NCBI GenBank assembly: GCA_013697915.1
Contig: JACCVY010000124.1
Coordinates: 1-45,837, forward strand
Origin: Blastocatellia bacterium
GTDB lineage: Bacteria; Acidobacteriota; Blastocatellia; Pyrinomonadales; Pyrinomonadaceae
DNA length: 45,837 nt
Reading direction: 5' to 3'
In this document: positions 7,422-29,460 of the stretch, piece by piece
Layout: each line of letters opens with the position of its first letter
Numbering within the stretch: the stretch's first letter is position 1
Translations under genes and position numbers: made by a program
The notes under the pieces: model-generated
Told to the model about the DNA's origin: nothing
Database searches by the model: none
Seen by the model: only the letters and a program-made list of their open reading frames with translations

Positions 7422-8756
7422 ATGTCAGAACGAATCTATCGCGATCCGGTTCACAACATCATTAGGCTTCGCACCGACAACGACGAAGGCGCACTGATCA
7501 TGCATTTGATCGACACGCCTGAGTTCCAACGACTGCGACGTATCAAGCAACTGGGCCTTGGCTTGTACACCTATCAGGGCGCCGAACATTCGCGCTTTAC
7601 CCATTCGCTTGGCGCGTTTCACTTGATGAGCCGCGTGCTGGACCGCCTCGGCGAAATGCACCGCATAGACAAACAGGATCGCGCGGCGGCTCGCGCCGCG
7701 GCGTTGCTTCATGACGTGGGCCATGGATCGTTTTCGCACGTGATGGAAAAAGTGCTCGGCTTTCATCACGAGAAATGGACCGTGGAAGTGTTGCTCAGTG
7801 AGGAAACTGAGGTTGGCCAGCGCCTGCGCGCACATTCAGCTGACTTGCCGGCCAAGGTTGCAGCAATCATCGAGGGCAAGTTCCAGCCGGCCGCGCTGGC
7901 TCAACTGGTTTCCTCGCAGCTCGACGTCGATCGCATGGACTACCTCTTGCGCGATTCGTTAATGACCGGAGCAAAGTACGGCATTTATGATCTGGAATGG
8001 ATCATCAACGCGTTGGCGATCGATGAAGAACATGATCGCATTTACGTGGCGGCGCGTGGTCTATATGCCGTTGAGGAGTATTTGCAAGCGCGCTATTACA
8101 TGTTCCGGCAGGTCTACTTTCATCGCGCATTGCGCTCCGCTGAAGCCGTGCTTCGTTCCATTTTGCGGCGCGCGCTTGCGCTGCTGGAAAACAACAAGCC
8201 TGTTTGGCATGCGTCTGGCACTGCTTTTGAAAAAGTGCTGCGCAGGAAATCGCTGACAATCACGGAGCATCTCGAGGTTGACGATTCGGACGTTATGTTT
8301 CACGTAAAGCAGTGGCAACGCTCTGATGACGCCGTTCTTGCCGATCTCAGTCGTCGCTTCGTCACGCGACGTCTTTTCAAAGCCATTGATCTGGATATGC
8401 CAGTTGACGAACGTCCCGATTTCCTGGCTGCGGCGCGCGCGTGCGTTGCGAAAGCGGGTTACGATCCTGAGTATTACTTCATCGAAGATCGGGCCAGCGA
8501 TGTCCCTTACTACAATTACTACACGCCGAAGGATGCAGAACCGAAGAGCCGTATTTACGTCGAAGACGGATACGCGCGGCCGCGCATACGCGAGATCAGT
8601 GAAGTAAGCGACGTCGTGCGTGGACTGCAGCGCGGCTATGAGTTGCATCGCGTGTGTTTCCCGGCCGAAGTTAAAGACGAAGTCTACCGGCTTTATCACG
8701 ATGCGACGCCCAGGGATCGCTCAGCTGTTGGCCACGCAAACGCAAACGGAGGTTAA
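7422..8756 (+). CDS. HD-superfamily phosphohydrolase (SAMHD1/dGTPase-like)
   Basis: The protein has 444 residues. It opens with the family signature [10 protein letters not shown] and [12 protein letters not shown], then [15 protein letters not shown] (first metal His), [12 protein letters not shown] (the HD pair, ~residues 97-98) and [14 protein letters not shown] (distal Asp). All four metal ligands H...HD...D are therefore present, so it should be active. Related proteins hydrolyse dNTPs to nucleoside plus triphosphate, but many in this subgroup have no tested substrate. GGAGG at its extreme 3' end serves the next gene, which begins six bases after this stop, so the two probably form an operon. 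Confidence 0.85.
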
Positions 8757-8762
8757 TCCGCA

Positions 8763-9305
8763 ATGGCTAGAATCGCGGATGCTGATGTCGAGCAGGCGGA
8801 TCGTTGTGTGAAAGACGTGCTCGACGCGCAGCGGAAAACGTGGGGCGCACCACTGCTCAATCACCTCCTGTACGCCAGGCGTCTTTCAATTTTCCGCGGC
8901 GCTCGCGCAATGTGGACGGGCATTGAAAGCTCCGGATTAATTGACGCGGGCTTGCGCGGGCTGATCAATCGCCGCGTGGCCGCGCTGAACGGGTGCGAGT
9001 TTTGACAGGATATAAATGCTGCCGTGAGCAGCCGGCTGGGTGTTTCTATTGAAAAGATTGAAGCGCTGGAAAGCTACGCAACCAGCGGTCTGTACAATGC
9101 AGTCGAGCGCGCTGCCCTCGAGTATGCCGACAGCATTACGATAACTGGCCGCGACGTCAGTGATGATCTTTTTGCGCGACTTCGCTGTTACTACAGCGAC
9201 GACGAGATAGTGGAATTGACGGCAACGATTGCCTGGGAAAATTCTTCGAGCAAATTCAATCGTGCCTTGCGCGTGCCGTCGCAGCGTCTGTGGAAGATGG
9301 ATTGA
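8763..9305 (+). CDS. AhpD/carboxymuconolactone-decarboxylase-family protein with in-frame TGA at the CxxC motif (candidate selenoprotein)
   Basis: Read through the TGA at 9003-9005 this is a 180-residue protein of normal family length. Residues 1-80 end in RRVAALNGCEF and the frame resumes QDINAAVSSRLGVS, so the TGA replaces the second residue of the CxxC redox motif (usual form: NGCxFCxDIN). The rest matches the family C-terminal half well (RAALEYADSITIT, LFARLRCYYSDDEIVELTATIAWEN). Family members are thiol peroxidase/reductase-like proteins; the second Cys is the reactive one in mycobacterial AhpD. CxxU forms of AhpD-like proteins are known from environmental surveys. A hairpin meeting bacterial SECIS spacing follows. 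The alternative is a TGC/TGT to TGA nonsense mutation or sequence error, giving an 80-residue fragment. GGAGG 10 bases upstream supports the ATG. No sel genes are in the window. Confidence 0.7.
9003..9036 (+). promoter_or_regulatory. UGA codon plus candidate bacterial SECIS hairpin
   Basis: After the UGA come 12 bases, then a perfect 5-bp stem GCTGC (9018-9022) / GCAGC (9028-9032) with loop CGTGA. The loop starts 17 bases after the UGA and has G at its second position. As I know it, bacterial SECIS elements have an apical loop ~16-37 bases after UGA with a G in the first two loop positions. An alternative stem GCCG/CGGC (9021-9024 with 9033-9036) also places G second in the loop. The stem is short, so this alone is weak proof. 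Confidence 0.45.
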
Positions 9306-10483: not shown

Positions 10484-10888
10484 GTGAAGAATTCCGGTTT
10501 CAATACAATTCGACAACCGCGCGTCGCGCGCGCGGAACCCGCGGCGATAGATGTACCGGTTATCGTCTTAACCGGCGAGCGCACCGCTAGCGCTGCCGAG
10601 ATTTTCGTTGCCGCTCTGGCAAAGGCTAAATGCGCAAGAATCATCGGCACACAAACGTGCGGCTGCGTGCTGGCAATTCGCGCGCGCCACAATTTGCCGG
10701 ATGGTGGAGTGTTGGATGTTAGCGAGTTGGATTACAAAACGCCGGCGGGCGAACGTCTCGAAGGACATGGTATCCAACCCGAACAGATGGTGGTGGCCCA
10801 CCGCGAAGATCTATATGGGAACCGCGATGCAGCGTTGGCTGACGCGCTTAGTCAGTTGACGTTGCTTCAAAGCCAACCTCATAGATAA
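10484..10888 (+). pseudogene. C-terminal fragment of an S41 (CtpA/Tsp-type) protease
   Basis: 134 residues from a GTG; a TAA lies just two codons upstream. It matches only the end of the S41 catalytic domain: VPVIVLTGERTASAAEIFVA carries the nucleophilic Ser context (SASAAEI-type), followed by ARIIGTQTCGC where active members read GTxTFGKG, so the general-base Lys position appears to be Cys. DGGVLDVSELDYKTPAGE and GIQPE match the usual tail. The PDZ domain and the front of the protease core are absent upstream in any frame. It is best read as a remnant; a small free-standing non-catalytic domain is less likely. Confidence 0.6.
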
Positions 10889-26368: not shown

Positions 26369-26725
26369 GTGATTCGCTCCTTCCGTGGAAAGGAGGCCCA
26401 GGCTTTATTCGAAGGCCAAAGCCCGCGGCGGCTTCAGCAGATCGCCAGAGTTGGGCAGCGAAAGCTCATGCAATTACACGCCGCCCATCGCCTGCGCGAT
26501 CTGACAATTTTTCCAGGGAATCACCTTGAGGCTTTGAAACGGGAGCGGAAGGGCCGGCACAGTATTCGCATCAACGACCAATATCGTATCTGTTTCGTTT
26601 GGCGCGATGGCGACGCGTTTGATGTTGAGATAGTTGATCACCACACTAGGAGTCAGTTATGCCTAAGAAGAACAACAGAATGCCGCCGGTTCACCCCGGA
26701 GAGATTCTCAGAGAAGACCTCATGA
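26369..26725 (+). CDS. higB: HigB-type (RelE-fold) toxin with an extended C-terminus
   Basis: 118 residues from GTG. Residues 1-92 match a full HigB/ParE-like toxin (MIRSFRGKEAQALFEG, RRLQQIARVGQRKLMQLHAA, GRHSIRINDQYRICFVWRDG, FDVEIVDHH). The family normally ends at about that DHH, near residue 92. Here the sequence GATCACCACACTAGG reads past it; removing one AC would give GAT CAC CAC TAG. So a 2-base slip probably added 26 residues, which overlap higA by 67 bases in another frame. Toxins of this type cleave mRNA at ribosomes. Whether the tail harms activity is unknown. Confidence 0.85.
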   Translation: MIRSFRGKEAQALFEGQSPRRLQQIARVGQRKLMQLHAAHRLRDLTIFPGNHLEALKRERKGRHSIRINDQYRICFVWRDGDAFDVEIVDHHTRSQLCLRRTTECRRFTPERFSEKTS

Positions 26726-26967
26726 AGCCTTTGGGCCTTACAATGAATGGCCTGGCGCGCGAATTAAAAATTCCTGTGAACAGGATGAGCGAGATCGTCA
26801 ATGGTCGTCGCGCCCTCAATGCCGATGCCGCGCTTCGCTTGTCGCGCTACTTTGGGAACACCCCTGAGTTCTGGATCAACCTTCAAGCTGCCTACGATCT
26901 CCGCGTCACCATTCATTCCTCAGCCAGTCGTATCGAACGAGAGGTGCGTCCTCGCAAAGCTGCTTGA
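26659..26967 (+). CDS. higA: HigA-type antitoxin (HTH_3/XRE)
   Basis: 102 residues. The opening PPVHPGEILREDLMKPLGLT and MNGLARELKIPVNRMSEIVN form the helix-turn-helix, followed by LRLSRYFGNTPEFWINLQAA, the HigA hallmark. AGGAGT lies eight bases before the ATG, inside the end of higB, so the pair is translationally linked. It binds HigB and represses its own promoter by family knowledge. It converges on the DUF5996-type gene, one base between stops. Confidence 0.92.
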   Translation: MPKKNNRMPPVHPGEILREDLMKPLGLTMNGLARELKIPVNRMSEIVNGRRALNADAALRLSRYFGNTPEFWINLQAAYDLRVTIHSSASRIEREVRPRKAA

Positions 26968-27929: not shown

Positions 27930-28334
27930 TCAAAGCCAGGCGATCTTTATTTCGTCTTCGACCGATTTGAAGTCTCGGTCCCCGGTTACCAATTCCGCAT
28001 TTCTCAATTTTGCCAAACCAGCTGCAAAGGCGTCAGCATAAGCAAGTTTTCTTGATGCTTTGAAAATTGCCGCCTGCCTGACAAGCGCCAGGTCTGTTTC
28101 GATTGGCACAAGTTCTATTGGCATTGCGTGAATCTCGCGGGCATGGTGTTCTGCCAAATCCTGGGATGCGCCTCGCGTAATTGAGTAATAGATTTCACCC
28201 CAATTAATTATTGTCATCAGCAACTTGGTTGAGCCTGTCCCGGCTTTGATTAACAATTTTTCCACCGCCAACGCGGCGGGCTCGTCGTTGAAGAGGGCCA
28301 TTAACGCCCAACTGTCGAGCACCTTGGTGGCCAA
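27930..28334 (-). CDS. vapC: VapC-type PIN-domain toxin
   Basis: 134 residues from TTG, directly after the vapB stop. PIN-domain acidic residues are visible: VLDSWALMALF (first Asp), the Glu of the second helix (AVEKLL), and YADAFAAGLAKL with ELVTGDRDFKSV (third and fourth Asp). PIN toxins are Mg2+-dependent RNases that cut tRNA or rRNA. The preceding AbrB-type antitoxin gene confirms the module. Confidence 0.9.
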   Translation of the reverse strand: MATKVLDSWALMALFNDEPAALAVEKLLIKAGTGSTKLLMTIINWGEIYYSITRGASQDLAEHHAREIHAMPIELVPIETDLALVRQAAIFKASRKLAYADAFAAGLAKLRNAELVTGDRDFKSVEDEIKIAWL

Positions 28335-28336
28335 GT

Positions 28337-28582
28337 CTAGAGCTTCCTCTCTCGTTTGCGCTCACTCAAAAACTCTTTCATTGCGCCGGTGCCTTTTAGC
28401 GAGCCGCGCAACCGGTTGATATGTGAGCGTGTGATTGGCTTTAGGATGAGGTGGTCGGCCTGTCGATAGACAATGGCTTTGGTGCCCTCTTCAATCTCCA
28501 GCTCCTGTCGCAGGCGGCGCGGTATCACAACCTGGCCCTTGGTGCTGAAGTAGACAGTCTCAGTTTTGTCGGTGAGCTTCAT
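28337..28582 (-). CDS. vapB: VapB-type AbrB/SpoVT antitoxin
   Basis: 81 residues from the ATG at 28582; a longer frame from TTG at 28627 would swallow the promoter and is rejected. The swapped-hairpin DNA-binding motif is VYFSTKGQVVIPRRLRQELE followed by EGTKAIVYRQADHLILKP. The C-terminal ~35 residues (LRGSLKGTGAMKEFLSERKR) would wrap VapC. It shares an operon with vapC, spacing two bases. Confidence 0.9.
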   Translation of the reverse strand: MKLTDKTETVYFSTKGQVVIPRRLRQELEIEEGTKAIVYRQADHLILKPITRSHINRLRGSLKGTGAMKEFLSERKRERKL

Positions 28583-28589
28583 GGGTTTA

Positions 28590-28618
28590 TTCTTACTTAG
28601 CAGTACAAAGTAAGTCAA
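28590..28618 (-). promoter_or_regulatory. vapBC promoter
   Basis: On the minus strand TTGACT (28618-28613), a 17-base spacer and TAAGAA (28595-28590). Transcription would start close to the ATG at 28582, so the mRNA is leaderless or nearly so. Such promoters are usually repressed by VapBC itself. Confidence 0.6.
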
Positions 28619-28653
28619 CCCTGACAAGGTAAGCGGTTACGAAGTTCGTAATG

Positions 28654-29068
28654 TTAATACGGACAAGCCGCGCCGAGTCTCGCCCATTCCTGAAAGCGGC
28701 GCGCGAATTCGTCGTGAGGCATATCCACGGGCTTGCGGCCGTCGCCGGGATTCCAACCCCACATGACGAGTTTGTCTGACTCGACCTTAATCTTGCTCCA
28801 GTCAGCCTCGAGTTCTTCGACCAGCAACATGGGGCAGCGAAGTGTAAACGCCCTGGCCCATCTCAGACTTGTTAACAATGATCGTCACTGTGTCGTCCGG
28901 GGCGATTCTTACAAAAGCATTCGGTGCAAATGTTGCGGGCTTTGTTGAGGGCGGGTCGAAAGTGCTGGCATGGGCTGGCTCCGGCAGACACAGACTTATC
29001 AGCAGCCCCCCGCCGGCGGCAGCGCCGACCCTGAAAAAATCTCGTCGTTTCAGGGTGGTTGCGCTCAT
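28654..29068 (-). pseudogene. Isoquinoline 1-oxidoreductase beta-subunit remnant (iorB-like), frameshifted and deletion-fused
   Basis: From the ATG at 29068 (AAGGAG upstream, overlapping the iorA-like stop as ATGA) the frame reads a Tat-type leader (TLKRRDFFRVGAAAGGGLLI) and then the start of the molybdopterin subunit (FVRIAPDDTVTIIVNKSEMG, QGVYTSLP). At a run of four G on the plus strand (28831-28834) one extra base shifts the frame; the next frame continues correctly as MLLVEELEADWSKIKVES. After ~95 residues the match stops, and the tail DKLVMWGWNPGDGRKPVDMP...WARLGAACPY looks like the end of another small protein, one I associate from memory with cytochrome-like subunits of such operons. 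About 650 residues of IorB are missing. Confidence 0.65.
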
Positions 29069-29460
29069 GTCGTGCTCCTTTTGATTTCGGCAGCACGATG
29101 AATGGCGCTTCGGATTCGCGGGTAGGTGCCGCAACGGCAGATGTTGCCGGTCATGGCTTCATCAATGTCGTTGTCAGTGGGCGAAGAATTCTCGGCGAGC
29201 AAAACGGCGGCGCTCATCAGTTGTCCTGATTGGCAATAGCCGCATTGCGGCACATCGATTTCCATCCACGCCTTTTGCAATGGATGACTAAGGTCCGGCG
29301 AGAGGCCTTCGATCGTGGTGATGTCTTTGCCGGTAGCGTCAGACACACGCTTAACGCACGAACGAATTGCTTCGCCATCCAGGTGAACCGTGCAGGCGCC
29401 ACACTGTGCCATGCCGCAGCCGTACTTTGTCCCGGTCAGACCAAGGGTTTCGCGCAACAC
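29065..29460 (-). pseudogene. Isoquinoline 1-oxidoreductase alpha-subunit (iorA-like), N-terminally truncated
   Basis: 131 residues from a TTG. Both [2Fe-2S] clusters are intact: [17 protein letters not shown]...RSC for the plant-type cluster, and QCGYCQSGQ...[13 protein letters not shown] for the second. Family members begin about 25 residues earlier with a beta-grasp segment ending in LLWVLRDTLGL; here only VLRETLGL survives, and the codons before it (FVRQNHRR) do not match. So the ferredoxin fold has lost its first strands and its normal start. It overlaps the iorB-like remnant by four bases. The locus is most likely dead. Confidence 0.7.

Follow-up and report, generated by a model that had tools for sequence, protein, structure and literature searches.

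A gene of the CMD/AhpD fold in a contig of a Blastocatellia bacterium (the window, that is, the whole stretch of 45,837 nucleotides analysed) almost certainly encodes a selenoprotein, the UGA at 9003-9005 being predicted from comparative sequence evidence to specify selenocysteine (Sec). The frame at 8763-9305 on the forward strand is open apart from this single internal TGA and the terminal TGA (9303-9305), and its read-through product has 180 residues, contains the motif NGCEFUQDIN and extends for 99 codons past the internal TGA. An earlier sequence-only reading had described a frame open on either side of one TGA, a joined protein of this length and 99 codons after the TGA, all of which were confirmed; its placement of the TGA at the second Cys of a CxxC motif was also borne out by the read-through product and the homologue alignment, the motif being C78-E-F-U81 with the TGA at the second position. 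In the standard list of open reading frames, the protein is broken at residue 80 and restarted at a GTG (position 9024); because of this split, the active site would vanish from annotation. The features of the locus are listed in Table 1.

Table 1. Features of the putative selenoprotein gene and its upstream flank in the window
Feature	Position	Strand	Basis or remark
HD-domain gene upstream, ending 6 bp before the putative selenoprotein gene	7422..8756	+	Context kept only within the genus
Shine-Dalgarno-like GGAGG, 10 nt 5' of the ATG	8748..8752	+	Direct reading of the sequence
Putative CMD/AhpD-fold selenoprotein gene, 180 aa, family NF053654	8763..9305	+	Profile matches, AlphaFold2 model, PDB fold matches
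C78 codon (TGC), Cys of CxxU	8994..8996	+	Unvaried in 25/25 aligned proteins
TGA predicted to be read as selenocysteine (U81)	9003..9005	+	TGA in 24/24 aligned genes; TGC in L050
Predicted bSECIS apical hairpin, arms GCTGC (9018-9022) and GCAGC (9028-9032), loop CGTGA (9023-9027)	9018..9032	+	Covariation, synonymous constraint

The joined protein matches the Pfam CMD domain (PF02627, E 1.2e-9, 38.5 bits against a gathering score of 23). It also matches, from end to end, the NCBIfam model NF053654, 'YciW-related (seleno)protein' (GroundWater_YciW), with an E value of 3e-94 and, when U is scored as C, 313.8 bits (cut-off 310); the genome search, in which TGA counted as a stop, gave 307.7 bits. 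The window protein thus lies near the cut-off and has the lowest NF053654 score among the members found in the order.

Conservation of the TGA among relatives carries much of the argument. Among public records, the closest relative is a metagenome-assembled genome of Pyrinomonadaceae (88% identity), which places the window in Acidobacteriota. Strong homologues were found in 17 of 119 genomes of the order (the window genome included), representing nine genera, and each of these 17 has exactly one internal stop, a TGA, always at the U81 codon. A sample of the phylum (396 genomes) added six more distinct homologues with TGA from six other families. Altogether, 23/23 distinct near relatives, drawn from many genera and several families, keep both the TGA and the coding frame before and after it. 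An alignment of homologues at this codon, which the sequence-only reading had proposed, therefore shows TGA in the relatives and not TGT or TGC. A distant homologue in the phylum sample (L050) has TGC at the U81 codon, which provides the Cys member of a Sec/Cys pair. On these sequence comparisons, Sec appears to be nearly fixed in the subfamily. A copy 72% identical to the window protein, also with the TGA, is present on a contig labelled Rokubacteria (L027, QHSC01000265.1), reflecting either horizontal transfer or a misbinned contig, and a search of plasmids returned nothing but distant relatives (<60% identity).

The part of the gene downstream of the TGA is also under purifying selection. 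Relative to the nearest relative, in which the codon is also TGA, dN/dS is 0.075 before the TGA and 0.16 after it; the latter value indicates that the post-TGA part is translated and constrained, as it would not be in a pseudogene or behind an ordinary stop. A further signature is a 5-bp hairpin (GCTGC-CGTGA-GCAGC) that starts 12 nt past the TGA, inside the coding sequence. Pairing is retained in 24/24 sequences (120/120 pair cells standard, with G-U variants in places), and two compensatory changes (C-G to G-C and G-C to A-U) were observed; L051, the most distant sequence, contributes both. Equally good hairpins arose in only 3 of 500 shuffles, and slid versions of the hairpin fail. Codons +5 to +9, which encode the hairpin, include the three strongest synonymous constraints of the gene (excess synonymous identity of 0.69 at +5, 0.51 at +8 and 0.66 at +9; gene mean 0.07, sd 0.14), and codons +6/+7 switch between GCC GTG and GCG GTC with the GU of the loop preserved. 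The Cys-containing homologue, a single sequence, lacks the hairpin sequence. The apical loop CGTGA, just 3' of the UGA, is small and contains a G, a loop of this type being a hallmark of bacterial SECIS elements (PMC1088965). Taken by itself, the folding energy of the window hairpin does not beat that of shuffled sequences (z-score near 0), so the SECIS claim is based on comparison; judged in this way, the hairpin is a bacterial SECIS element.

The genome (4.5 Mb in 271 contigs, a fragmented assembly with 97.4% completeness and 1.15% contamination) contains the machinery for Sec incorporation. The four genes whose presence the earlier reading had suggested checking were all found: a tRNA-Sec (selC) with anticodon TCA (67.7 bits), SelB (356.8 bits), SelA (541.9 bits) and SelD (347.4 bits), on contigs other than that of the window gene. 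The selD gene (L018, G000:C265:5983-6912, minus strand) has an in-frame TGA within MVSCSGUAAKL, a usual Sec position in SelD, and SelD of this genome is probably itself a selenoprotein. Among the relatives, tRNA-Sec was found in 22 of the 23 searched genomes with a TGA copy, the exception being a genome of 67% completeness. As tRNA-Sec is almost universal in the order (104/119 genomes) and also occurs in the genome that carries the Cys form, this co-occurrence is weak and non-discriminating evidence. Two to four tRNA-Sec matches were seen in several genomes of the order (G093, G100, G106, G037 and G038), pointing to extra copies or mixed bins.

Two further CMD-family genes with an in-frame TGA were detected in the same genome. 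One (L023, G000:C218:2168-2680) has the TGA at NGCEYU, passes the TIGR01926 cut-off with 86.9 bits, has His at U+4 and carries the hairpin CTGCTTC-GGC-GAAGCAG 3' of the TGA; it is likely a second AhpD-like selenoprotein. The other (L024, G000:C260:9337-9648, minus strand), with the TGA at NQCHYU and a hairpin CACGGGGA-GGC-TCTCCGTG 3' of it, passes TIGR01926 with 161 bits and is likely a third.

The downstream neighbour of the window gene contains a TonB_C domain, and the neighbourhood is conserved only within the genus; comparison of gene context across genera gave none that names a substrate. Elsewhere in the window, a Fer2/Fer2_2 small subunit (28802-29460, minus strand) precedes a fragment of a molybdopterin domain that ends after about 110 residues, representing either a remnant or an assembly break, and the next genes downstream of this fragment (27930-28627) resemble, by eye, a toxin-antitoxin pair. 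The S41-family peptidase at 10484-10888 (plus strand) is a fragment that retains just the C-terminal portion of its domain, and two overlapping small genes at 26369-26967 (plus strand) resemble, on inspection by eye, a toxin of the RelE/HigB type and an antitoxin of the HigA type.

The AlphaFold2 model of the window protein (pLDDT 95.7) has an all-helical CMD/AhpD fold. It aligns over 179 residues with 2prr (Z 23.4, rmsd 2.0), 6k40 (Z 23.3, rmsd 2.0) and Bmp8 (6ohi; Z 21.7, rmsd 2.5), and the predicted fold is AhpD-like, with Z of 20-23 against AhpD-related structures. The solved structures nearest by sequence are Atu0492 (2gmy, E 1.3e-22) and Bmp8 (6ohi, E 4.7e-20). C78, F80, C/U81, D83 and N85 do not vary across 25 sequences, and Arg71 is likewise invariant. 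In the proton relay of Mycobacterium tuberculosis AhpD, a Glu lies 12 positions ahead of the first Cys and a His 4 positions past the second. The corresponding Glu site (position 66) is occupied by A/S/G/C, mostly Ala or Ser, and the His site (position 85) by Asn in 25/25 sequences, so that the M. tuberculosis-type pair of relay Glu and His is found neither in the window protein nor in its subfamily (25 sequences). Because these catalytic positions are replaced, any proton relay must differ from that of M. tuberculosis AhpD and a peroxidase function is uncertain; the window protein may work like AhpD, and we make no claim of an M. tuberculosis-type AhpD.

The inference that this is a Sec-encoding gene, made in the sequence-only reading, is supported by the machinery, the conserved TGA in homologues and the SECIS-type hairpin. 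That reading had also regarded a nonsense mutation or a base error as a credible rival, a view overturned by the conserved TGA. Decay into a pseudogene through a nonsense mutation would be in keeping with the fragmented state of other genes in the window (28802-29460 and 10484-10888), but 23 other distinct sequences, spread over many genera, share the TGA, and both the purifying selection after the TGA and the conserved SECIS hairpin argue against decay; with such conservation across genera, this explanation is highly improbable and can be ruled out for practical purposes. A sequencing or assembly error that turned TGC or TGT into TGA is extremely unlikely, because independent genomes share the TGA, several of them being public records under other names (L025-L028), and these independent assemblies eliminate it for practical purposes too. 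What conservation shows most directly is translation past the TGA, which would also fit insertion of a residue other than Sec, either by near-cognate suppression or under a code in which TGA specifies Trp. However, the site corresponds in the alignment to the second CxxC cysteine and has a Cys codon in L050, the SECIS hairpin is conserved, the genome has the full Sec machinery, and the window gene itself terminates in TGA, all of which make readthrough with another residue very improbable.

With selenocysteine as the preferred reading of the UGA, the reaction itself has to be weighed. We infer Sec insertion and redox catalysis from the machinery, the UGA, the hairpin, the selection and the predicted fold. 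SelB with Sec-tRNA-Sec would decode the UGA as selenocysteine, the bSECIS hairpin in the coding sequence would recruit SelB, and the C78/U81 pair would most likely alternate between the selenol/thiol and selenenylsulfide states, reducing peroxide or another oxidised substrate. The selenoprotein might instead be no peroxidase and catalyse another reductive reaction of the CMD fold, for example a dehalogenation like that of the debrominase Bmp8, which is among the nearest solved relatives and lies close to the model in fold; the mostly Ala/Ser and invariant Asn residues at the AhpD relay positions point the same way. Set against this, AhpD-type peroxidase-related structures (2prr and 6k40) are as close or closer, and the genomic context gives no hint of a halogenated substrate, so that we consider such a non-peroxidase role rather unlikely. 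There is a similarly small chance that the whole subfamily consists of acidobacterial CMD-fold enzymes that are nearly obligate in their use of Sec and whose remodelled active site serves a non-AhpD reaction, such as reductive dehalogenation; in that reading, the remodelling would comprise Asn in place of His, mostly Ala or Ser in place of Glu, and the invariant Arg71, Asp83 and Asn85.

The gene is a further, firmly supported example of Sec use among Acidobacteriota and supplies a clean comparative SECIS element with compensatory changes. It does not alter what is understood about the uses of Sec; the remodelled active site, the near-fixed Sec and the two further CMD-family TGA genes of the genome are of some interest.

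Selenoproteins with a CxxU motif, both AhpD-like (COG2128) and CMD-like, were described in a 2005 survey of the Sargasso Sea (PMC1088965), hundreds of them were counted in the GOS data in 2008 (PMC2398784), and both types are listed in reviews (PMC9312934, PMC13188914), which bears out the earlier statement that AhpD-like selenoproteins have been reported from environmental data. Since this class is described and the subfamily has its own '(seleno)protein' model, the kind is already known. There is essentially no difference from NF053654, of which the window gene is a full-length member; the 17 members detected in the order all retain the TGA. Like the AhpD-like selenoproteins of the Sargasso Sea and GOS (COG2128/TIGR01926), the window protein would have Sec at the second CxxC position and a SECIS apical loop containing G; unlike them, it does not reach the TIGR01926 cut-off (31.9 versus 81.8 bits), and it has Asn where both TIGR01926 paralogues of the genome (L023 and L024) have His. 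Atu0492 (2gmy) and Bmp8 (6ohi) share the fold, but their CxxC has Cys and not Sec, and Atu0492 has His where the window protein has Asn85. With the more distant M. tuberculosis AhpD (1knc, 1gu9; Z 11.3, rmsd 2.5, 135 aligned), the window protein has in common the CMD/AhpD fold and the redox CxxC, whereas the second Cys of that enzyme is predicted to be Sec in the window protein and the relay Glu and His are replaced.
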